Source: Methyloversatilis discipulorum (GTDB lineage Bacteria > Pseudomonadota > Gammaproteobacteria > Burkholderiales > Rhodocyclaceae). From it: a stretch of DNA of 64,000 nt. The translations under genes and the position numbers were made by a program. Of this stretch, positions 27,008 through 36,800 are shown one piece after another; position 1 is the stretch's first letter, and every line of letters begins with the position of its first letter. A model generated the notes under the pieces. The model worked only from the letters and a program-made list of their open reading frames with translations, made no database searches and was not told where the DNA came from. Where the stretch lies: the NCBI RefSeq assembly GCF_018780585.1, contig NZ_JADMJL010000016.1, positions 220,766 to 284,765 of the forward strand, in the 5' to 3' direction.

Positions 27008-27496
27008 TCACAGGCTGCGTATCTTACGGAGCAGCGCGGTGGTCGAACGCTCGTGTTCGAAGGCGATCGATTCGACCCGGCCGCCGCGCGCCAGCACCTC
27101 GGTAGCACCGACGATGCGCTCGACCGGCCAGTCGCCACCCTTGACCAGCACGTCCGGCGTGCAGGCCTTGATCAGGTCGAGCGGCGTGTCGGCATCGAAC
27201 CAGGTGACCAGACTGACCGATTCCAGCGCGGCGATCACCGCCGCGCGGTCTTCCAGCGCATTGACCGGACGGTCCTCGCCCTTGCCCTGGCGCTTCACCG
27301 ACGCGTCGGTGTTCAGCGCGACGATGAGCGAGCCGCCGAGCGCACGCGCCTGCGCCAGGCAGGTGACGTGGCCGCGGTGCAGGATGTCGAAACAGCCGTT
27401 GGTGAACACCACCGGACCCGGCAGCTCACGGCGGCGCGCCGTGAGCTCGTCCGGCGAGCAGATCTTGGCTTCGAAGGCCGGCGTGCCGCCCTGCAT
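27008..27496 (-). CDS. rfaE2: D-glycero-beta-D-manno-heptose 1-phosphate adenylyltransferase
   Basis: 162 residues, the length of the stand-alone HldE C-domain. The nucleotidyltransferase signature is [14 protein letters not shown] (about 31-44), and the C-terminal motif is [11 protein letters not shown]. It transfers AMP from ATP to heptose-1-phosphate, giving ADP-heptose for the LPS inner core. The kinase half (RfaE1) is not in the window. Its ATG shares one base with the TGA of the diiron protein gene upstream, so translation is coupled. Confidence 0.9.
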
Positions 27497-28326
27497 CAGG
27501 CGGCGCCGGCGTACTGCTTGCGGAAGCGGTTCAGGTCGCCCACCGTCTTGAAGCTTTCGCCGAACAGCGAACTGAGGTTGCGCAGGATGCCGCCGATCAC
27601 GCGTGCCTCGCAGTCCTTGTCGAAGCGGATCTGCTCGTCCAGCCAGCGCTCCAGCCACTCCGGATCGGGCAGGCGCGACTGCACGGTGTCGCGCGGGAAG
27701 TGCGCCTTGCTCACGTGCAGATTGGTCGGGTGCATCGGCTTGCCGGCGCGGCCGCTGGCGGCCATCAGCATGCCGATCTTCGAGAACGCGGCGCGCGCGG
27801 CGTCGCCCGCCTGATCGATCGCCCGCTTCATGTACTTCAGATAGGCGCCGCCATGACGCGCCTCGTCGCGCGACAGCAGGTCGTAGATGTGCTTGATCAC
27901 CGGCTCGGTATGCCACTCGGAGGCGCGGCGGTACCACTGGGTCAGGCGCACCTCGCCGCAGAAGTGCAGCATCAGCGTTTCCAGCGCCGGCGCCGGGTCG
28001 AACTCGAAGCGCACCTCGTGCAGTTCCTCTTCGGTCGGCGCCAGTTCCGGGCGGAAGCGGCGCAGGTATTCGATCAGCACCAGCGAGTGCTTCTGTTCCT
28101 CGTAGAACCAGATCGACATGAAGGCCGAGAAGTCGGAATCGTCGCGGTTGTCGCGCAGGAACATTTCGGTGGCCGGCAGCGCCGACCATTCGGTGATGGC
28201 GTTCATCTTGATCGTCATCGCCTGCTCGTCGGACAGCAGGGCGGCGTCGAAACTGTCCCAGGGCACGTCTTTCGCCATGTCCCAGCGGGCGGATTCGAGT
28301 GACTTGAACAGTTCGGGATAGAGCAT
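27496..28326 (-). CDS. Ferritin-like diiron protein (acyl-ACP desaturase-like)
   Basis: 276 residues, start ATG 28326 with AGGAG. Two diiron ligand pairs are visible: EEQKHS (about 75-80) and DEARHGG (about 153-159), with further acidic residues in NAITEW and [13 protein letters not shown]. The E-E-x-x-H and D-E-x-R-H-G spacing resembles stearoyl-ACP desaturases and related oxygen-using diiron enzymes. The likely chemistry is O2 activation on a fatty acyl or similar substrate; the substrate is unknown. It is coupled to rfaE2, perhaps linking it to envelope lipid work. Confidence 0.65.
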
Positions 28327-28526
28327 GAAGGGCTCCTGAAGAAAAAAGCATTTTACGCGAGCAGAAGTCAGGCCGATGACAGCTTGTGGCCGCATCCCGC
28401 TTCCGTCGTCCGCGTGGCGAGGTCCGCGCATGCGCGACGCAAGCCGGCCGCTACGCAGCTGCCTATTCAATCATGGATGGACGCCGGCGGATCGCCGGAA
28501 AAGCGCGTGTTTCCCGTCGTCCCGGT

Positions 28527-29441
28527 TCAGTGGCTGGCGTGGGCGTCCCGCCAGGCGCGGACAGCGGGCCCGACGTCGCCGATGCCGCGTATCACGCGCA
28601 CGCCCGCTTCGTTGCGCAGCTTGTCGCGCGCACCGGCACCGCCGACCCACAGTTCCACTGTCGGCAGCAGCGCTTCGCGCAGCGTGCGGATGCCGGCAAT
28701 GGCCTGGCGCACCGGGAAGGCGGAACTGAAGGACAGCGCCACGATGTCGGCGCTGGCAGTGAGGGCAGAGGTGCGGATGTCGGCCAGTGGCATGCGAGGC
28801 CCGAGCGAACAGCACTGCGCACCTTCGGCGGTCAGCATCACCTCGACCATCAGCAGGCCCAGCGCGTGTTCCTCCTCCGGCAGCGTGGTCAGCAGCACGC
28901 GCGGCGGCTTGCCGGTGCGCGCGTAACTGGCCAGCGTTCCGCGCAGGAAGGACTGCGTCTGTTCGGTGTAGAAGTGCTCGTCCGGCACCCCGATGTCGCC
29001 GCGCATCCACGCTTCACCGATGTCCACGTTGAGCGGCGCGACCAGATCGGTGACCAGCCCCTGCAAGCCCTTTTCCAGCAGCGTCTGCTGGAACACCCGG
29101 CGCAATGCCTCGACGTCGTGGCTGCGAATGGCGTCGAGTATTTCGCCGGCCAGCAGCGCCGGCACGCGTGAGGCCTGCTCGGCCTCGATGATGAGCTGCA
29201 GTTCGGCCGCGCTGGCCGCCAGCAGCTTGCCGGGGCGCCAGCCCTGGTCCATCAGGCGGCGTATCAGGCGCAGCTTGCCGACGTCTTCGAGCGAGTACAG
29301 CCGCTCGCCGGCCTCGTCGCGGATGGGTTTGGGGAAACCGTAGCGACGTTCCCATACGCGCAGCGTGTCTTTCAGAAGGCCGGTCTCCCGCTCCACCGCG
29401 CTGATGGTCAGCAGGGACAGTCCTGATGCGTGAGCACTCAT
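28527..29441 (-). CDS. carH: CarH/LitR-type MerR regulator with B12 photoreceptor domain
   Basis: 304 residues. The MerR helix-turn-helix is at about 10-80 (LTISAVERETG, LRVWERRYGFP, RLYSLEDVGKLRLIRRL). A four-helix cap at about 90-170 contains the W-x9-E-H signature: W145, nine residues, E155-H156. The cobalamin-binding Rossmann domain follows with E190-x-H192-x-x-G195 giving the lower axial His. In Thermus and Myxococcus CarH, adenosylcobalamin holds a DNA-bound tetramer in the dark and light releases it. The residue after W145 is Met, where Thermus CarH has the His that forms the light-state adduct. The gene faces the lipid operon across two operators, one of which abuts its own start codon. 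Confidence 0.88.
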   Translation of the reverse strand: MSAHASGLSLLTISAVERETGLLKDTLRVWERRYGFPKPIRDEAGERLYSLEDVGKLRLIRRLMDQGWRPGKLLAASAAELQLIIEAEQASRVPALLAGEILDAIRSHDVEALRRVFQQTLLEKGLQGLVTDLVAPLNVDIGEAWMRGDIGVPDEHFYTEQTQSFLRGTLASYARTGKPPRVLLTTLPEEEHALGLLMVEVMLTAEGAQCCSLGPRMPLADIRTSALTASADIVALSFSSAFPVRQAIAGIRTLREALLPTVELWVGGAGARDKLRNEAGVRVIRGIGDVGPAVRAWRDAHASH

Positions 29442-29456
29442 TTTGTCCTGGACAAA
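29442..29456. promoter_or_regulatory. Operator 1 (CarH candidate), touching the carH start codon
   Basis: TTTGTCC-T-GGACAAA, a perfect 7-1-7 palindrome directly next to the carH ATG (29441). On the minus strand it supplies the only ribosome-site-like AGGA, so binding would also hide translation initiation. Confidence 0.75.
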
Positions 29457-29459
29457 TCG

Positions 29460-29488
29460 TTGACATGGCGACTCATGAGTCCTAGATT
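29460..29488 (+). promoter_or_regulatory. Sigma-70 promoter of the light-stress operon
   Basis: TTGACA (29460-29465, perfect -35), 17-bp spacer, TAGATT (29483-29488). It lies between the two operators, with the start predicted near 29495. Confidence 0.75.
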
Positions 29489-29503
29489 ACGGCTTGAGTC
29501 TTG

Positions 29504-29520
29504 TTTTGTCCAGGACAAAA
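29504..29520. promoter_or_regulatory. Operator 2 (CarH candidate), downstream of the predicted start
   Basis: TTTTGTCC-A-GGACAAAA, a perfect 8-1-8 palindrome with the same core as operator 1 and 63 bp from it centre to centre (six helical turns). The two sites flank the promoter, so a tetramer bound at both could loop or block RNA polymerase. Confidence 0.75.
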
Positions 29521-29530
29521 AGGGGGCGGT

Positions 29531-29797
29531 ATGAAGACAATGAAAAGTGCAGGAAGCGCGATGGCGATGCTGTTCAGCGTGTCCGCGTGGGCAGTCATGC
29601 CGTCGGCCGGCGAGCCGGTCGTGCACGAGCCCGCGGCGGCGCCAACGTCGAACACGTCTGCGACGACGCGGCCGGCATCGAGCCAGACCGATGCGCTGGT
29701 TCATCTGCACCGCGCCGCAACCGGTGCCTACTTCCCGGCGCACCTCATCGTCGATGCTTCGGCGCGCTGCTGCGAGTCGGCCCGTGCTGCGCGCTGA
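29531..29797 (+). CDS. Small exported protein of unknown function, first gene of the light-stress operon
   Basis: 88 residues with signal peptide MKTMKSAGSAMAMLFSVSAWA. The mature part is Pro/Ala/Thr-rich, then ALVHLHRAATGAYFPAHLIVDASARCC. I do not recognise a family. GGGGG (29522-29526) precedes the ATG. The end overlaps the predicted GTG of the peroxidase gene by 14 bases. The two adjacent cysteines near the C-terminus could form a disulfide or bind metal. It is the first cistron behind the putative CarH-controlled promoter. Confidence 0.55.
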   Translation: MKTMKSAGSAMAMLFSVSAWAVMPSAGEPVVHEPAAAPTSNTSATTRPASSQTDALVHLHRAATGAYFPAHLIVDASARCCESARAAR

Positions 29798-30344
29798 CGG
29801 TCTGCGCATCGTCTTCGCGCTGATGACGACCTTGACTTCGATGACTGCGGCTGCGGCCGACGCCTGTCCGACGCTGCTCGATCGTTCGATTCCCGGCCTG
29901 CTCGACGGCAAGCCGCGTTCGCTGTGCGAATACAGCGGCCGCGTGCTGCTGGTGGTCAACACCGCCAGTCGCTGTGGCTATACCGGCCAGTACGCCGGGC
30001 TGGAGAAGCTGCAGGACAGCTACGGCAAACGCGGCCTGACCGTGCTCGGCTTCCCGTCGAACGACTTCGGCAACCAGGAGCCGGGAAGCGACAAGGACAT
30101 CGCCGAGTTCTGCAGCATGACCTATGGCGTCAAGTTTCCGATGTTCTCGAAGACCTCGGTCAGGGGCGCGCAGCGCCACCCCTTCTACGCCGATCTGGCG
30201 AAGGCCTCGGGTTCGGAGCCGGCGTGGAACTTCCACAAATACCTGATCGGGCGCGACGGCCGGACGGTGACCGCTTTCCCCAGCAACGTGGCACCCGATT
30301 CGAACGTGCTGCTGCGCGAGATCGAAGCGGCTCTGGGCAGATGA
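29784..30344 (+). CDS. Glutathione peroxidase-like protein, exported
   Basis: 186 residues from GTG 29784, which gives a signal peptide (VLRADGLRIVFALMTTLTSMTAAAADA); ATG 29823 would cut into it. The peroxidase motifs are VVNTASRCGYTGQYAGLE with the peroxidatic Cys, LGFPSNDFGNQEPGSD with the conserved Gln, and WNFHKYLIGRDG with the Trp. It reduces organic or lipid peroxides using a thiol, here in the periplasm. Placement in the light-stress operon fits repair of photo-oxidised lipids. A 102-base gap with no terminator separates it from the next gene. Confidence 0.82.
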   Translation: MLRADGLRIVFALMTTLTSMTAAAADACPTLLDRSIPGLLDGKPRSLCEYSGRVLLVVNTASRCGYTGQYAGLEKLQDSYGKRGLTVLGFPSNDFGNQEPGSDKDIAEFCSMTYGVKFPMFSKTSVRGAQRHPFYADLAKASGSEPAWNFHKYLIGRDGRTVTAFPSNVAPDSNVLLREIEAALGR

Positions 30345-30446
30345 CGCAGATCGGCGGATCGCACACGCAAATTCGAGCGGGTGAATCCGCGCAGGTGAAT
30401 CCATAACGCGCGTTCGCGTGTAGCGGTGGGCTGGAGGCAGAAAAGA

Positions 30447-31730
30447 ATGAAGATTGCGGTCGTGGGGGCAGGCATTTCGGGCCTGTCGGCAGCCTGGTTG
30501 CTGTCGCGCCGGCACGAGGTGACGCTGTATGAGCAGGAGGGCCGCCTGGGCGGTCACTCGAACACGGTGGATGTCGAGATCGACGGCGTGAGCCATCCGG
30601 TCGACACCGGCTTCATCGTGTTCAATCGCGACACCTATCCGCATTTGTGCGGACTGTTCTCGCTGCTCGGCGTGTCGATCGCCGACAGCGACATGTCCTT
30701 CGGCGTGTCGCTGCGCGAGCCGGACATCGAGTGGGCCGGTACCAATCTGGCCAGCGTGTTCGCGCAGCCAGCGAACCTGGCGCGCCCGCGCTTCTGGGGC
30801 ATGCTGCAGGACATCCTGCGCTTCAATTCGTCAGTCACCGAGAGGGCGGCCAATGGCACCGCCGAACACATTTCGCTCGGCGAGTTCCTGGTGCGCAACC
30901 GTTACGGCGACGCTTTCCGCGACTGGTATCTGCTGCCGATGGCGGCGGCCATCTGGTCCTGTCCGACGCAGACCATGATGAGCTATCCGCTCGCCACCTT
31001 TGCGCGCTTCTGTCACAACCACGGTCTGCTGCGGGTGAACGACCGGCCGCAATGGCTCACCGTGCGCGGCGGGTCGCGCGAGTATGTGAAGCGCCTGGCG
31101 GCCTCGCTGCAGGACGTGCGCCGTGCGTCGGCCGTAAAGGGTCTGCAGCGCGTATCCGATGGCGTGCTGGTGCAGGCGGCTGGCGTGCTCGAACGCTACG
31201 ACCAGGTGGTGCTGGCCTGTCATTCGGACGAGGCGCTGGCGCTGCTCGGCGATACGGCGACGGCGTCCGAGCGGCGTCTGCTGGGCGCCATCCGCTACCA
31301 GCCCAATCATGCGGTGCTGCACACCGACACGGCGTTGCTGCCGCGCAACCGCCGCGTCTGGTCGTCGTGGAACTACATGGCAGGCGTCGGCGCGCCGGAC
31401 AGCCGGCCGGTCAGCGTGTCCTACCTGATGAACCGGCTGCAGCCGCTGCCTTTCGAGCAGCCGGTGGTGGTGTCGCTGAACCCGTTCATCGAGCCGGACC
31501 CCGCCCGCGTGATCGCCCGCATCGATTACGCGCATCCGCTGTTCGATGGTCCGGCCATCGACGCGCAGGCGCGGCTGCCGGAAATCCAGGGGCGCGATCG
31601 CCTGTGGTACTGCGGCGCGTGGACCGGCTACGGCTTCCACGAAGACGGCCTCGCCTCGGCGGTGCGCGTCGCCCGTCACCTGGGCGCAGACATTCCGTGG
31701 CAGCGCAGCGGCGAGGTGCTGGCCGCATGA
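30447..31730 (+). CDS. FAD-dependent amine oxidase/desaturase-like protein (COG2907)
   Basis: 427 residues, no signal peptide. The N-terminus is a Rossmann FAD site, IAVVGAGISGLSAAWLL, followed by E-Q-E-G-R-LGGHSNTV and DTGFIVFN. The C-terminal FAD motif is near 395-415 (WYCGAWTGYGFHEDGLASA). This COG2907 family is related to phytoene desaturase and is nearly always next to DUF1365 and Cfa-like genes, as here. In Rhodobacter-type clusters, such proteins have been linked to fatty-acid modification under singlet oxygen. GGAGG at 30433-30437 supports the ATG. Its end overlaps the DUF1365 start (ATGA). Confidence 0.8.
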   Translation: MKIAVVGAGISGLSAAWLLSRRHEVTLYEQEGRLGGHSNTVDVEIDGVSHPVDTGFIVFNRDTYPHLCGLFSLLGVSIADSDMSFGVSLREPDIEWAGTNLASVFAQPANLARPRFWGMLQDILRFNSSVTERAANGTAEHISLGEFLVRNRYGDAFRDWYLLPMAAAIWSCPTQTMMSYPLATFARFCHNHGLLRVNDRPQWLTVRGGSREYVKRLAASLQDVRRASAVKGLQRVSDGVLVQAAGVLERYDQVVLACHSDEALALLGDTATASERRLLGAIRYQPNHAVLHTDTALLPRNRRVWSSWNYMAGVGAPDSRPVSVSYLMNRLQPLPFEQPVVVSLNPFIEPDPARVIARIDYAHPLFDGPAIDAQARLPEIQGRDRLWYCGAWTGYGFHEDGLASAVRVARHLGADIPWQRSGEVLAA

Positions 31731-32497
31731 GCGATGTGGTGGCGGTCAGCCTCTGTCGCGGCGCGGTCATGCACGCCCGCGCGACGCCGGTGCGCACCCG
31801 CTTCGCCTACCGCCTGTTCTTCCTGCGCATCGCGCTGAGCCGTCTTGGCCGGCAGCCGGTGCCGATGCTGGCGCTGAACCGCTGGGCGCCGCTGTCCTTT
31901 CACTACCGCGACCACGGCGCGCGCGACGGCTCACACCCGTTGCTCTGGATACGCGCGCTGCTGGCACGTGAAGGTCTGGGCTGCGCCGACGGCGAAGTGG
32001 TGCTGCAGACCATGCCGCGGCTGTTCGGCTACGTGTTCAACCCGGTCAGCTTCTGGTTCTGCCATGACCGTGCCGGTGCGCTGCGCGCTGTGCTGTGCGA
32101 AGTGAACAACACCTTCGGCGAGCGTCACGATTACCTGGTCGCGCACGCCGACGGTCGGCCGATCGGCGACGGCGAGTGGATGGAGACGCGCAAGGTGTTT
32201 CACGTATCGCCCTTCTTCCCGGTCAGCGGCAGCTACCGCTTCCGCTTCGATCGGCGGGGTGATCTGCACGCGGTGGCCATCGACTACCACGACGGCGGTG
32301 AACGCCGGCTGCGCACACGCGTGTCCGGTCGTGCCGAAACCATGAGCCGGGCTGCCGCCTGGCGCGCACTGGCCGCGCACCCGCTGATGACGCTGGCGGT
32401 GATCGCGCGCATCCACGTGCAGGCCTTCCATCTGTGGCGCGCGCGCGTGCCCTTCTTCAGCAAACCGCAACCTCCCGTACAGGAAATGACCCGATGA
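31727..32497 (+). CDS. DUF1365 family protein
   Basis: 256 residues. Typical DUF1365 segments are visible: ATPVRTRFAYRLFFLRI, LGYVFNPVSFWFCHDR-like text (MPRLFGYVFNPVSFWFC), EVNNTFGERHDYLV and KVFHVSPFFPVSGSYRF. The biochemical activity is not known to me; co-occurrence with the FAD oxidase and the methyltransferase is strict in proteobacteria and points to a shared lipid product. It overlaps both neighbours by four bases. Confidence 0.8.
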   Translation: MSDVVAVSLCRGAVMHARATPVRTRFAYRLFFLRIALSRLGRQPVPMLALNRWAPLSFHYRDHGARDGSHPLLWIRALLAREGLGCADGEVVLQTMPRLFGYVFNPVSFWFCHDRAGALRAVLCEVNNTFGERHDYLVAHADGRPIGDGEWMETRKVFHVSPFFPVSGSYRFRFDRRGDLHAVAIDYHDGGERRLRTRVSGRAETMSRAAAWRALAAHPLMTLAVIARIHVQAFHLWRARVPFFSKPQPPVQEMTR

Positions 32498-33708
32498 ATC
32501 AGCCCGACGTCCTGATTTCGCTCGAGCGCCGGAATGCGCTGCCGTTCGCCGCACGTCAGGTGTGCCGGCTGCTGGAGCGCATCGAACACGGCTGGCTGCT
32601 GATGACGCTGCCTAACGGCGAACTGCTGTCCTTCGGCCACCACGGCGAGCCGGTGGAGATGCGGGTGAAAGACTGGGCCACCTTCGATCACGTCATCGCG
32701 CGCGGTGACATCGGCCTTGGCGAAGCCTGGTTCGACGGGTTGTGGGACAGCGACCACCTGGCGCGCGTGCTCACACTGTTCGCGCTGAACCGGGAGGCGC
32801 TCGGGCGCGCCATACACGGCAATCTGCTGGCGCTGGCGCTGGCCCGCATCCGCCACCTCTGCCGCGCCAACACGCGCAGCGGAAGCCGCCGCAACATCAT
32901 GGCGCACTACGATCTGGGCAACGATTTCTACGCGCTGTGGCTGGACCGCAGCATGACGTACTCGAGCGCCTTGTTCGAAGGCGACGCCCAGCGCGATCTG
33001 GCGGCCGCCCAACACGCCAAGTACGCGCGCATCGCCCGCGTGCTGCGCCTGCAGCGCGATCAGCCGGTGATCGAGATCGGTTGCGGCTGGGGCGGCTTTG
33101 CCGAAGTGGCGGCGCGGGACAACGGCGCCTACGTGCACGGCGTGACGCTGTCGCCGGCGCAACTGGCGTGGGCGCGCGAACGGGCCCAGCGCGGCGGCTT
33201 CGCCGACCGGGCCAGCTTCGAACTGTGTGACTACCGCGACCTGCGTGGCCAGGTCAGCCGCATCGTGTCGATCGAAATGCTGGAGGCGGTCGGCGAGCGC
33301 TGGTGGCCGACCTATTTCGCCAAGCTGAACGGCCTGCTCACGGTCGGCGGCGAAGCGGTGGTGCAGACCATAAGCATCGCCGACGATCTGTTCCCGCGTT
33401 ACCGCAAGGGCACCGACTTCATCCAGCAGTACGTGTTCCCCGGCGGCATGCTGCCGTCGCCGTCGGTGTTCGTGGACCGGGCACAGCGCGCCGGTCTGAA
33501 GCTGCGTGACGACTACCGCTTCGGCATCGACTACGCGATCACGCTGGCACGCTGGCGCGAAACCTTCGAGCAGCACACCGACGCCTTGCGCGCGCTCGGC
33601 TTCGATACCCGCTTCCAGCGGCTGTGGCGCTTCTACCTCGCGTACTGCGAGGCGGGCTTCCGCGCCGGGTCGATCGACGTGCACCAGTTCCACCTGGTGA
33701 AGCCGTGA
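32494..33708 (+). CDS. cfa: Cyclopropane-fatty-acyl-phospholipid synthase-like methyltransferase
   Basis: 404 residues. The SAM-binding fold is marked by VIEIGCGWGGFAEVAA (about 190-205), preceded by the family motif AHYDLGNDFYALWLDRSMTYSSA and followed by GVTLSPAQLAWA and VSIEMLEAVGERWWPTYF; the bicarbonate-site Glu of Cfa proteins is in that last stretch. It adds a methylene or methyl group from SAM to double bonds of membrane phospholipids. In stress clusters of this layout the product may be a branched or furan fatty acid rather than a simple cyclopropane. It is coupled to DUF1365 (ATGA) and to the next gene (GTGA). Confidence 0.85.
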   Translation: MNQPDVLISLERRNALPFAARQVCRLLERIEHGWLLMTLPNGELLSFGHHGEPVEMRVKDWATFDHVIARGDIGLGEAWFDGLWDSDHLARVLTLFALNREALGRAIHGNLLALALARIRHLCRANTRSGSRRNIMAHYDLGNDFYALWLDRSMTYSSALFEGDAQRDLAAAQHAKYARIARVLRLQRDQPVIEIGCGWGGFAEVAARDNGAYVHGVTLSPAQLAWARERAQRGGFADRASFELCDYRDLRGQVSRIVSIEMLEAVGERWWPTYFAKLNGLLTVGGEAVVQTISIADDLFPRYRKGTDFIQQYVFPGGMLPSPSVFVDRAQRAGLKLRDDYRFGIDYAITLARWRETFEQHTDALRALGFDTRFQRLWRFYLAYCEAGFRAGSIDVHQFHLVKP

Positions 33709-34232
33709 TCAGGCGTCTGCTCTGCGCGCTGCTGTTCGCTTCGGCCTGCGCATTCGCACAGCCGCCGGCGGGCGTGGTCGATCTGCTCGACGATCCGAAG
33801 CCGCTGGGTAGCGGCGAGATGCGCTGGTTCGGTCTCAAGCTGTACGACGCGACGCTGTGGGTGAGTGGTGGCCGTTACCAGCCGGATGGCGGCTTCGCGC
33901 TGAGCCTGCGCTACGCCCGCGACTTCGACGGCGTGCGGCTGGCGCGCGCCAGCATCGACGAAATCCGCCGCCTGGGCGAGCGCGACGACGCGAAGATCGC
34001 GCGCTGGCACGAGGTGCTGGCCCGCGTATTTCCGGACGTGAAGGCGGGCGAGGTGATCACCGGCGTCAAGCTGGCCGACGGCAGCGCACGCTTCTTTCAC
34101 CAGGGGCGGGCGCTGCCGGCGGTCGACGATCGCGCGCTGTCGGACGCCTTCTTCGCGATCTGGCTCGATCCGCGCACGCGCGAGCCAGCGCTGCGCGCGA
34201 AGCTGCTGGCCGAGGCCGGGCAGGCGCGGTGA
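33705..34232 (+). CDS. Chalcone-isomerase-like exported protein
   Basis: 175 residues, GTG start inside the cfa stop. Signal peptide MIRRLLCALLFASACAFA. The body (GEMRWFGLKLYDATLWV, FALSLRYARDFDG, GEVITGVKLADGSARFFHQG, FFAIWLDPRT) matches the CHI-like fold proteins that bind fatty acids or similar ligands. A periplasmic lipid-binding role beside the methyltransferase and the carrier is reasonable. It overlaps the next gene by GTGA. Confidence 0.75.
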   Translation: MIRRLLCALLFASACAFAQPPAGVVDLLDDPKPLGSGEMRWFGLKLYDATLWVSGGRYQPDGGFALSLRYARDFDGVRLARASIDEIRRLGERDDAKIARWHEVLARVFPDVKAGEVITGVKLADGSARFFHQGRALPAVDDRALSDAFFAIWLDPRTREPALRAKLLAEAGQAR

Positions 34233-35485
34233 ACACCGCGCGGGTATTCGCCTACGGCCTGCTCGGTGCGCCACTGGCGGCCGCCGCGCTGCCGATCTAC
34301 ATCCATATTCCGAAGCTGTATGCCGAACATTACGGCGTGTCGCTGACGCTGCTGGGCGTCGTGCTGTTCGCCGCGCGTCTGGTCGATGCGCTGGCCGACC
34401 CGTTGATCGGCGCCGCTGGCGATCGCGCGCGCGGGCGTCGCCTCATCGTGCTGCTCGGGCTGCTGCCGCTGGCGGTCGGACTGCCCGCGCTGGTGAAACC
34501 GCTGGCCGGCATCGACCCGCTGCTCTGGCTGGTCGGCGCGCTGCTGCTGGTCTATGCCGGCTACAGCATCGCCACGATTAATTACTCGGCCTGGGGCGCC
34601 GAGCTGTCGACCACGCCGGCGCTGGGTACGCGCCTGGTGGCCTCGCGCGAGGGCTGGGCACTGGTCGGCGTGGTCGCGGCGTCGGTCGCACCCGGTCTGC
34701 TGGCCGACGACGCACCGACCGGCCTGTGGCGCGCAGCGCTGTACTGGTTGCCCTGGCTGGCGCTGGCCGCGCTGCTGACCACGACCACGGTACCTGATCT
34801 GCGGCCGCAGGCAGTCGCGCAGCCGCTGCTGGTGACCCTGCGCGAGGTGATGCGGCACGCGCGCTTCCGCCGCCTGCTCGCGGTGTTCGCGCTCAATGGC
34901 ATCGCTGCGGCGGTGCCCGGCACGCTGGTGCTCTTCTTCATCGCCGACGTGCTGCAGGCGCCGGAGCGCGAAGGTCTTTTCCTGGCGCTCTACTTCGTCG
35001 CCGGCGTGCTGGCGCTGCCGCTGTGGACGCGGCTGGCCGACCGCATCGGCCGCGCGCGCAGCTGGGCCGCGTCGATGCTGCTGGCGATCGCCGTGTTCGG
35101 CTGGGCATGGACGCTCGGACCGGGCGACGCCACCGCCTTCATGCTCATCTGCGTCGGCTCGGGCATCGCATTGGGCGCCGACCTCGCGCTGCCGCCAGCG
35201 CTGCTGGCGGGTCTGATCGCGCGGCGCGAGGAGCCGCTGCCGGCCGGCGGCAGCTTCGGTGTATGGACCTTCGTCACCAAGCTCAACCTTGCGCTGGCCG
35301 CCGGCGTCGCCTTGCCTGCGCTGGCGCTGCTCGGCTACCGGCCGGGTGAGCAGGGCGACGAGGCGCGCGCCGCGCTGACCGCCGTCTATGCGCTGTTGCC
35401 GCTGCTGCTGAAGGCGGCGGCGCTCTGTCTGCTGTGGGCCGGCACGCGCCGGCTCGAACCCGATCTGCAAGGAGCTTCATCATGA
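34229..35485 (+). CDS. MFS carrier, GPH/MelB-like
   Basis: 418 residues with about twelve hydrophobic helices. The loop VDALADPLIGAAGDRARGRR between helices 2 and 3 is the MelB-type motif A. It lacks a substrate clue. Within this cluster, MFS genes of the same type are regularly found, so it may move a lipid precursor or head group across the inner membrane. The start is GTG at 34229 overlapping the previous stop; the stop overlaps the ATG of the lipoprotein gene. Confidence 0.78.
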   Translation: MNTARVFAYGLLGAPLAAAALPIYIHIPKLYAEHYGVSLTLLGVVLFAARLVDALADPLIGAAGDRARGRRLIVLLGLLPLAVGLPALVKPLAGIDPLLWLVGALLLVYAGYSIATINYSAWGAELSTTPALGTRLVASREGWALVGVVAASVAPGLLADDAPTGLWRAALYWLPWLALAALLTTTTVPDLRPQAVAQPLLVTLREVMRHARFRRLLAVFALNGIAAAVPGTLVLFFIADVLQAPEREGLFLALYFVAGVLALPLWTRLADRIGRARSWAASMLLAIAVFGWAWTLGPGDATAFMLICVGSGIALGADLALPPALLAGLIARREEPLPAGGSFGVWTFVTKLNLALAAGVALPALALLGYRPGEQGDEARAALTAVYALLPLLLKAAALCLLWAGTRRLEPDLQGASS

Positions 35486-36021
35486 AGAAAATGCTGTGCC
35501 GGCTGTTGTCGGTGCTCGGGCTGGCCGCGTTGGCCGGCTGCGGTGGTGTGCCGGTGGAGAAGTACGCGGCGCAGAAGCCGGTGCTCGATCTGAAGCAGTA
35601 TTTCAACGGCCCGGTGACCGGTTGGGGCATGTTCCAGGACCGCAGCGGCGAGGTGATCAAGCGTTTCGTCGTCCGCATCGACGCCCGCTGGCAGGGTGAC
35701 ACCGGCACGCTGGACGAGCGCTTCGAGTGGAGCGACGGCACGCAGACGCGGCGGGTGTGGACGCTGCGCCATCTGGGCGATGGCCGCTACAGCGGTCGGG
35801 CCGACGACGTGGTCGGCGAGGCGACCGGCGAGGCGAGCGGCAATGCGCTGCGCTGGCGCTACGTGCTCGCGCTGCCGGTGGACGACAAGGTCTACAACGT
35901 CGACTTCGACGACTGGATGTATCTGATCGACGACAAGGTGATGCTGAACCGCTCGGCGATGAGCAAGTTCGGCGTCCATCTGGGCGAGGTGACGCTGTCC
36001 TTCACCCGCGGCGCGCCGTGA
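35482..36021 (+). CDS. DUF3833 lipoprotein
   Basis: 179 residues. The signal peptide ends in the lipobox L-A-G-C (Cys19), so the protein is lipid-anchored. The DUF3833 body is recognisable by YFNGPVTGWGMFQDRSGEV, FEWSDGT and NVDFDDWMYLIDDKVMLNRS. It is likely attached to the outer membrane. AAGGAG precedes its ATG. The function is not known; it always travels with the Cfa/DUF1365/SDR set. Confidence 0.8.
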   Translation: MKKMLCRLLSVLGLAALAGCGGVPVEKYAAQKPVLDLKQYFNGPVTGWGMFQDRSGEVIKRFVVRIDARWQGDTGTLDERFEWSDGTQTRRVWTLRHLGDGRYSGRADDVVGEATGEASGNALRWRYVLALPVDDKVYNVDFDDWMYLIDDKVMLNRSAMSKFGVHLGEVTLSFTRGAP

Positions 36022-36800
36022 TGTTCGCGCCGCTGAATCCGCCCTTGAAGGATTGGGCAGGCAAGCGCGTCTGGCTGATCGGCGCGTCGAGCGGCATTGG
36101 CGCCGCACTGGCGCGCCGGCTGATCGACGCCGGCGCGCGCGTCGCCCTGACCGCGCGCGACGCGGCGCGACTGGCCGAGGTGGCCGGTCGCGCGCCGAAC
36201 GTGCTGCAGCTTCCGATGGATGTGAGCGAGCCGGGGGCGCTGGCCCGAGGCGCCGCCGAGTTGTGGGCGTGCTGGGGCGGCATCGACGCGGTGTTCTTCG
36301 TCGCTGCGCGCTACCGTCCGGTACGCGCCTGGGAACTGGACGACGACGATGTCGACGCCACGCTGCGCACCAACGTCGCCGCCGTCATGCACGGCTGCGC
36401 CGCGGTGCTGCCCGGCATGCTGGTGCAGCAGTCCGGTGCGCTGGTCATCGTGTCCAGCGTCGCTGGCTACCGGGGATTGCCGAAGGCGCTGGTCTACGGC
36501 GCGAGCAAGGCGGCGCTGATCAACTTCGCCGAGGTGCTGTACATGGACGTGCGTCCGCGCGGGCTGGGTGTGCATCTCGTGTGCCCGGGCTTCGTCGAAA
36601 CGCCGCTGACCGCGCAGAATGACTTCACGATGCCGGCGCTGATCAGCGCCGACGAGGCCGCCGGCCACATCCTCACCGGCCTGGCGCGTGGCGATTTCCA
36701 CATCCATTTTCCGAAGCGCTTCACTGGCTGGCTGCGCGTGCTGCGGCTGCTGCCCTACCGGCTGTACTTCGCCGCGGTCAGGCGAATGACCGGCCTGTGA
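36021..36800 (+). CDS. Short-chain dehydrogenase/reductase, last gene of the light-stress operon
   Basis: 259 residues. NAD(P) site G-A-S-S-G-I-G-A (about 21-28), the N-V-A-A stabilising motif near 117, the catalytic Ser in IVSSVAGYRG, Tyr-x3-Lys in YGASKAAL, and VCPGFVETPLT. The C-terminal tail is basic and hydrophobic (KRFTGWLRVLRLLPYRLYFAAVRRM), suggesting peripheral membrane contact. It should reduce or oxidise a hydroxyl or keto group, plausibly on a lipid. It starts on the base after the lipoprotein TG, sharing one base. No T-run terminator follows; the next gene is convergent 16 bases away. Confidence 0.85.
   Translation: MFAPLNPPLKDWAGKRVWLIGASSGIGAALARRLIDAGARVALTARDAARLAEVAGRAPNVLQLPMDVSEPGALARGAAELWACWGGIDAVFFVAARYRPVRAWELDDDDVDATLRTNVAAVMHGCAAVLPGMLVQQSGALVIVSSVAGYRGLPKALVYGASKAALINFAEVLYMDVRPRGLGVHLVCPGFVETPLTAQNDFTMPALISADEAAGHILTGLARGDFHIHFPKRFTGWLRVLRLLPYRLYFAAVRRMTGL

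Follow-up and report, generated by a model that had tools for sequence, protein, structure and literature searches.

Paired palindromes around an overlapping two-way promoter as probable operators of a CarH-type regulator and an adjacent, putatively furan-fatty-acid-type operon

Introduction

Which protein reads the two near-identical palindromes that separate a carH-like gene from a divergent multigene operon in Methyloversatilis discipulorum, and what would it control from there? The locus lies in a 64-kb stretch of genomic DNA, analyzed here as a whole and referred to as the window. In the CarH operators described so far, 11-bp units of the form nnnnTnnACAn stand in tandem as direct repeats, three in Thermus and four in Bacillus; some myxobacteria have one or two full repeats plus degenerate ones, and the CarA site of Myxococcus, at first taken to be palindromic, was later reread as direct repeats (PMC9304148). 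Class II LitR proteins bind TGTACA-N12-TGTACA (PMC9758184). Text searches, with figure logos and most subscription papers outside their scope, found no mention in print of the palindrome of this locus as a CarH operator.

Materials and Methods

We compared 78 named carH loci and 30 carH loci from a survey of 150 family genomes (108 in total, partly overlapping), 99 of which have distinct promoter stretches. Distinct loci with two sites number 65, and 53 of these have a spacing of 63 bp. In the family survey, presence of carH was defined as a homologue at E ≤1e-20, which holds for 60 of the 150 genomes; ten genomes with weaker matches only were counted as carH-less. The protein alignment comprises 106 of the 108 homologues (L015 and L097 were too short and were dropped), 98 of them distinct. 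The set of nine ufa promoters that are not divergent from carH was hand-picked; L075 (58 bp, carH-side pair) was left out. The papers PMC9304148, PMC7380195, PMC10442372, and PMC9758184 are cited from parts of their text.

Results

The Palindromes and Their Rarity

Palindrome 1 (op1, TTTGTCCTGGACAAA, i.e., TTTGTCC-T-GGACAAA) occupies positions 29442–29456 of the window, and palindrome 2 (op2, TTTTGTCCAGGACAAAA, read from the sequence as TTTTGTCC-A-GGACAAAA) occupies positions 29504–29520; neither has a strand of its own. The 15-mers that they have in common start 63 bp apart, that is, 6.0 turns at 10.5 bp per turn. The carH gene lies on the minus strand; its ATG starts at 29441 and abuts op1, with AGGA 4 nt upstream in the carH sense. 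The twin palindromes around TTGACA-17-TAGATT, beside a gene for a B12-type MerR protein, are thus present as the original prediction described them.

Perfect palindromes with a one-base centre and arms of at least 7 are common per se, the window containing 17 of them. The 15-mer at up to three mismatches has two sites only in the window, op1 and op2; 20 of 100 shuffles also reached at least two such matches, hence, this test alone is weak. Throughout the 4.56-Mb genome, the exact 15-mer is found twice, at op1 and op2 only, with one further match at one mismatch and three at two mismatches. The palindrome is thus rare in the genome, with both exact copies at carH. Despite the weak shuffle test, we rejected a chance origin: the co-occurrence with carH and the conservation in relatives, given below, are decisive.

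The single one-mismatch copy (C69:32741, L004 5742–5756) lies near an open reading frame that is integrase-like by eye. About one such match is expected in the genome, as estimated from base counts, and when up to two mismatches are allowed, a reversed control pattern gives four matches and the 15-mer six; a mobile or repeat element was rejected on these grounds, this copy being probably due to chance.

Co-Occurrence With carH

The exact palindrome is found in 31 of the 150 family genomes, spanning 21 of 68 genera. Every one of the 31 has carH, whereas the exact palindrome is missing from all 90 carH-less genomes (Fisher 9e-16, kinship ignored); it is absent from 29 of the 60 carH genomes. Exact sites fall within 400 bp upstream of carH in 33 of 45 cases. 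A one-mismatch search of the same genomes matched 84 of 150, and the control pattern matched in many as well; being too near background, it was dropped. The 78 named loci (876 kb) yield 152 hits of the positional weight matrix (PWM, threshold 19.5), 137 of them upstream of carH. Since the matrix was trained on carH-upstream sites, only the other 15 are independent, and each of these lies in the stretch leading up to the ufa/GPx operon.

The palindromes track carH and the operon separately. In Thauera-type genomes, where the two are apart, the 12 carH loci chosen for comparison keep one palindrome with TGGACA-17-TAnnnT. Among 20 chosen non-divergent or odd carH loci, T(G/A)GACA-17-TAnnnT stands at the palindrome in 15, and the leftward promoter is not at the expected place in five (L096, L098, L075, and L077; L080 has the −10 only). 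Conversely, both palindromes are retained at the nine ufa or GPx-ufa promoters without a divergent carH; they are 61–63 bp apart (63 bp in six) and surround TTGAC(A/G)-17-TAnnnT.

Seven genomes contain the DUF1365 operon without carH, and in six of these the palindrome was not found in the stretches fetched (best PWM score 12.2). The carH-less genome G056, which is 85% complete and has a weak carH-like match, carries a site of score 22.9 before the operon; a second site, of score 30.3, is on a different contig. The ufa operon of G013 and G075 still has as its neighbour a gene for a protein like that encoded at 27496–28470 of the window; neither a carH match nor a palindrome beside that operon was found in these two genomes.

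This distribution agrees with the proposal that the neighbouring B12-type MerR protein uses the palindromes as its operators. By co-occurrence and placement, op1 and op2 are very probably operators of CarH that control both carH and the ufa-type operon.

Layout in Relatives

At least two sites at up to three mismatches are found in 74 of the 99 distinct loci; two loci, L094 and L097, show no site at this threshold. The 65 distinct two-site loci have one order in common, palindrome 1, ufa promoter, palindrome 2. The two sites nearest carH in the 74 loci are 63 bp apart in 50, 64 bp in two, 72–75 bp in 12, and at other distances in ten; spacings of 52, 58, and 77 bp are also seen. In the 72–75-bp class, the additional turn is placed between op1 and the −35 of the ufa promoter. 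The named carH loci nearest to that of the window are from Methyloversatilis, at about 70% identity.

A Probable Two-Way Promoter

The predicted promoter of the ufa operon, TTGACA (29460–29465)-17-TAGATT (29483–29488), on the plus strand, is the sole sigma70-like promoter found by the scan within 28300–30600 (shuffle mean 0.2). It is conserved in relatives, every base of TTGAC and of TA...T being kept in 51–52 of the 53 loci with 63-bp spacing. A likely carH promoter runs back to back with it on the minus strand (29512–29484): its −35, TGGACA (29512–29507), would lie in op2, followed after 17 nt by the −10, TAATCT (29489–29484), which overlaps the ufa −10 and in the window is weak, matching three of six bases of TATAAT. 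The comparison of loci argues for this assignment. At the place of the carH −35 in op2, the 65 two-site loci have TGGACA (37), TAGACA (21), or near forms (7), and 61 of the 65 have TAnnnT 17 nt past it. Opposite the first T of the carH −10, the operon-sense strand has A in 51 of the 53 divergent loci vs. none of the nine ufa promoters without a divergent carH. The centre base of op2 is A in 53/53 loci with 63-bp spacing, and this base corresponds to the T of the carH −35.

The consensus of the 63-bp class (53 distinct loci, operon sense) is TTTGTCcTGGACAAA-NNN-TTGACa-N17-TAt.tT-A-N15-tTTGTC.AGGACAaA, TTGTC of op1 being identical in all 53. A perfect 12-bp palindrome, GACTCATGAGTC, is seen inside the promoter spacer at 29470–29481; it was not seen at the equivalent place in the aligned promoters of the relatives compared.

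Half-Sites and Their Register

Each palindrome contains one TnnACA, pointing inward. On the plus strand, two TnnACA half-sites stand 11 bp apart at 29449–29465, TGGACA starting at 29449 in op1 and TTGACA, which is also the ufa −35, at 29460. This second repeat is full in 35 of the 53 loci with 63-bp spacing, and no third one is conserved. Operator and promoter elements would thus overlap at both ends of the region, if the promoters read from sequence are correct: op2 contains the likely carH −35, and the ufa −35 doubles as the second TnnACA repeat. Among 130 oriented sites, GTC in the left half is found in 130 and a central T in 119. The history of the Myxococcus CarA palindrome calls for caution; conservation of the inverted half across the group argues that it is used here. 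TGTACA does not occur within 29430–29535.

The original prediction held that the core might represent a new recognition rule. The differences from described CarH sites are the partner half in inverted orientation and the arrangement as a pair; the TnnACA half-site and the 11-bp register are already those of known CarH proteins. The idea of a wholly new rule was accordingly given up in favour of an extension of the known one.

A Third Site in the First Gene

A third palindrome-like site (PWM score at least 14) lies inside 31 of 53 small open reading frames after op2 (those of L016, L033, L059, and 28 further loci); the small open reading frame of the window has none. In all 31 the site is in frame, mostly encoding V-x-D-(K/N). 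When V-x-D sites are chosen by peptide, the codons are GTC for Val and GAC for Asp in 30/30, vs. GTC for 132 of 336 Val and GAC for 74 of 150 Asp elsewhere in the same reading frames (counts uncorrected for relatedness). This fixation of GTC and GAC points to selection on the DNA.

The CarH-Like Protein

The carH/litR gene (28527–29441, minus strand) encodes 304 amino acids with a MerR domain, a four-helix B12-binding domain, and a Rossmann-type B12-binding domain (Pfam MerR_1, B12-binding_2, and B12-binding). The nearest solved structure is Thermus CarH (PDB 5c8d, E 1.6e-35). An AF2 model (35 alignment rows; mean pLDDT 91.3, pTM 0.70) has the CarH–DNA complex 5c8e as its best PDB match (E 2.5e-19), and by this match the protein is predicted to have the CarH fold. 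Identity to 5c8e/5c8d is 30–32%, with whole-chain TM-scores of 0.56–0.58 and large rmsd reflecting the domain arrangement; the target TM-score is at least 0.8 for most of the cobalamin-domain chains listed. The score against the NCBIfam CarH equivalog NF052513 is 146 bits at a cut-off of 400, which places the protein outside that narrow equivalog.

The recognition helix, R28-V-W-E-R-R-Y34, has the form RxWERRY, with R28, W30, E31, R33, and Y34 invariant in the 106 aligned rows. The class I B12 motif is D/ExHx2G/P-x41-SxT/V-x22-27-GG (PMC9304148). Here, ExHxxG is E190xH192x2G195, its E, H, and G being conserved in 106/106 rows; the SxT/V element reads SFS, and GG is at 267–268. W145, E155, and H156 of the Wx9EH motif are likewise invariant (106/106). 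The genome encodes two families of cobalamin adenosyltransferases, which could supply AdoCbl.

The exception concerns the residue after the Trp of Wx9EH. This motif contacts the adenosyl group, and a His following its Trp is common to many CarH proteins (PMC9304148). It is absent from all 106 aligned homologues (98 distinct), the position being occupied by Met (50, including the protein of the window), Leu (37), Val (7), Ile (4), or other residues (8). In Thermus CarH, this His132 forms the bis-His light-state cobalamin and is reported to be critical for tetramer release in light; the H132A mutant mostly remains tetrameric in light, although an earlier report cited in the same paper has it still disassembling (PMC10442372). 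With no His132 equivalent in 106/106 rows, light release cannot use the exact Thermus route. Since PMC9304148 gives the His for many CarH proteins, not all, we class the protein as CarH-like and note the missing His as an exception; to judge from the alignment, this CarH branch either switches differently or responds less well to light.

The ufa-Type Operon and Other Sites

The first gene after op2 on the plus strand is a small open reading frame of 88 amino acids (29531–29797). Relatives have a small open reading frame at the equivalent place, in most cases of about 66–97 amino acids, with a hydrophobic N-terminus and a C-terminal stretch like LKLFLHR; five that were tested have no Pfam match above cut-off. 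Then follow, all on the plus strand, a glutathione peroxidase (29823–30344; Pfam GSHPx; start codon approximate), an FAD amine-oxidase/phytoene-desaturase-like protein, UfaD-like by context (30447–31730; Amino_oxidase, NAD_binding_8), a DUF1365 protein with the domain of UfaO (31727–32497; PMC7380195), a cyclopropane-fatty-acid-synthase-like methyltransferase, UfaM-like by context (32494–33708; CMAS), and, by Pfam, a chalcone-isomerase-like protein (below cut-off), an MFS transporter, a DUF3833 protein, and a short-chain dehydrogenase (together 33705–36800). The gene order is repeated in many relatives, as far as the flanks extend. We term the operon ufa-type because, in the furan fatty acid pathway, UfaO carries DUF1365 and has UfaD and UfaM as partners (PMC7380195); its function in the window is putatively of the furan-fatty-acid type.

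Three places in the window's own genome encode photolyases (PF03441). No site above a PWM score of 6 was found there, with flanks of about 1.5 kb scanned as far as the contigs reach, and these photolyases are not predicted to be CarH targets. In one relative (G067, L149 2826–2914), an exact palindrome and one with three mismatches, spaced by 74 bp, lie ahead of a photolyase gene. Two related genomes have an exact palindrome where a PAS-LytTR regulator gene begins (L155 3008, L156 2045). In relatives, exact palindromes are also seen near a chemotaxis receptor (L158 3038) and an alpha/beta hydrolase (L159 3091), and near an ABC1 kinase gene (L151 1543) and an amine-oxidase-like gene (L157 3040); thus, several exact sites are near genes without an evident light role.

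Discussion

Proposed Regulation

The reading that we consider probable is that op1 and op2 are operators of an AdoCbl-type CarH/LitR that represses both promoters in the dark and is released by light. In the dark, AdoCbl-bound CarH would occupy op1 and op2. On op1 it would abut the ufa −35, and may extend over it via the 11-bp TnnACA register; on op2 it would cover the likely carH −35, just past the start site expected for ufa from its promoter. The overlapping back-to-back promoters of carH and ufa would thus be shut together. In light, cleavage of the Co–C bond would take CarH off the DNA and allow transcription both ways. We infer the binding, the dark repression, the light release, the oligomeric state of CarH, and the transcription start sites from the arrangement of sites, promoters, and protein motifs. 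The control of both directions that had been predicted fits this anatomy, op2 holding the likely carH −35 and op1 and op2 flanking the ufa promoter. The likely carH promoter with its −35 in op2, the 11-bp TnnACA register, and the absence of a His132 equivalent go beyond the original prediction.

Alternative Readings

A stronger form of this reading has a CarH tetramer, a dimer of dimers, bridging op1 and op2 in a same-face loop or wrap, so that the 63 bp would itself be functional. We regard it as possible but somewhat doubtful. The prevalence of the 63-bp spacing, with a lesser class longer by a turn that falls between op1 and the ufa −35, would suit a bridge, as would the at least three steps of change between 63- and 74-type spacing on a quick CarH tree (98 proteins), the 61–63 bp held by the nine ufa promoters without a divergent carH, and the third site that in many loci lies about 150, 160, or 170 bp further. 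However, in divergent loci the geometry alone yields 63 bp, since op1 keeps a distance of 11 bp to the ufa −35 and op2 holds the carH −35, and the spacings of 52, 58, and 77 bp argue against a fixed distance. Strict helical phasing is not established by Rayleigh tests on distinct spacings, which for op1–op2 do not reach significance (p 0.54 at 10.5 bp) and for op2–op3 give mixed results (p 0.07 at 10.5 bp, 0.0035 at 10.0 bp, 0.015 at 11.0 bp), and the CarH of Cystobacter is a dimer (PMC9304148). It is unlikely, in our estimate, that the protein binds the operators but senses cobalamin or redox instead of light: the missing His132 ligand and the mostly light-stable H132A tetramer favour this, but Wx9EH keeps its Trp, Glu, and His in every aligned row, the earlier H132A report points the other way, and the ufa-type operon, together with the photolyase in one relative, makes a regulon of a type that fits light stress.

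That a transcription factor other than CarH acts on the palindromes is very improbable. CarH binding is deduced from sequence, and palindromes do stand near a few other genes and in G056, which has no good carH match; against this, the palindrome co-occurs with carH in 31/31 genomes vs. 0/90, remains with carH when the operon is elsewhere, was not found in six of the seven carH-less operon genomes, and retains the TnnACA signature and 11-bp register of CarH sites. We give still less weight, next to none, to a role of the palindromes in RNA, as Shine–Dalgarno bases or hairpins for translation of carH and the small open reading frame. AGGA of op2 is present in 63 of 65 loci and lies 4–10 nt before the small open reading frame in 44 of 53, and the first in-frame start of carH directly follows op1 in 30 of 65. 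Yet AGGA of op1, in the carH sense, is intact in 40 of the 65 two-site loci, and the single palindrome of Thauera-type loci is at least 70 bases from the carH start codon and upstream of the likely carH transcription start site; moreover, a DNA-binding regulator is encoded next door. The same two observations tell against the predicted autoregulation of carH at translation initiation, which we do not retain.

Relation to Known Systems

Dark repression by CarH, released by light, accordingly stays the preferred account, and the locus can be set beside other systems in its terms. With the CarH proteins of Thermus, Bacillus, and myxobacteria and with class I LitR it has in common RxWERRY, Wx9EH, ExHx2G, the predicted fold, the TnnACA half-sites, and a likely −35 in the operator. 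It differs in having a palindrome on each side of the promoter, with two direct repeats in register, vs. tandem repeats in known CarH operators (PMC9304148). It also differs in its target, a ufa-type operon and not the carotenoid genes of known CarH proteins, and in lacking a His132 equivalent.

The class II LitR proteins PplR1 and PmlR2 of Pseudomonas are similar as LitR proteins of light genes, including ufaM and a photolyase gene, and PmlR2 is a repressor that binds at the −35 and, at a second site, between start site and start codon; the P. putida LitR proteins control phrB, ufaM, folE, and cryB (PMC9758184). Class II LitR proteins are, however, thought not to bind B12 and to be switched through a LOV partner, and they bind TGTACA-N12-TGTACA, whereas the CarH of the window retains Wx9EH and ExHxxG and its probable site is TTTGTCC-N-GGACAAA (PMC9758184 for class II). 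The Rhodobacter ufa genes (RSP1091–1087 and ufaM) share UfaD-, UfaO (DUF1365)-, and UfaM-type genes with the operon of the window (PMC7380195). Their regulation seems to be of another kind. ChrR is a regulator with a role in singlet-oxygen signalling. Its loss in Rhodobacter raises the product (PMC7380195); the operon of the window instead faces a divergent CarH-type regulator.

Implications

More speculative, and as a whole unlikely to hold in every part, is a general model for a betaproteobacterial CarH branch without His132. Its operators would be in-phase palindromes on both sides of overlapping divergent promoters, in many cases joined by a third one within the first gene; one AdoCbl-built oligomer would clamp or loop both promoters, and light release would proceed without bis-His ligation.

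The comparison offers a precise candidate operator for a CarH-type regulator across Methyloversatilis, Zoogloea, Azoarcus, Thauera, Accumulibacter, and others. If the proposed regulation is true, B12-type light sensing would in these bacteria be tied to lipid modification of the furan-fatty-acid type instead of to carotenoids. The group would also provide a natural test of how CarH leaves DNA in light without His132, the residue judged critical in Thermus CarH.
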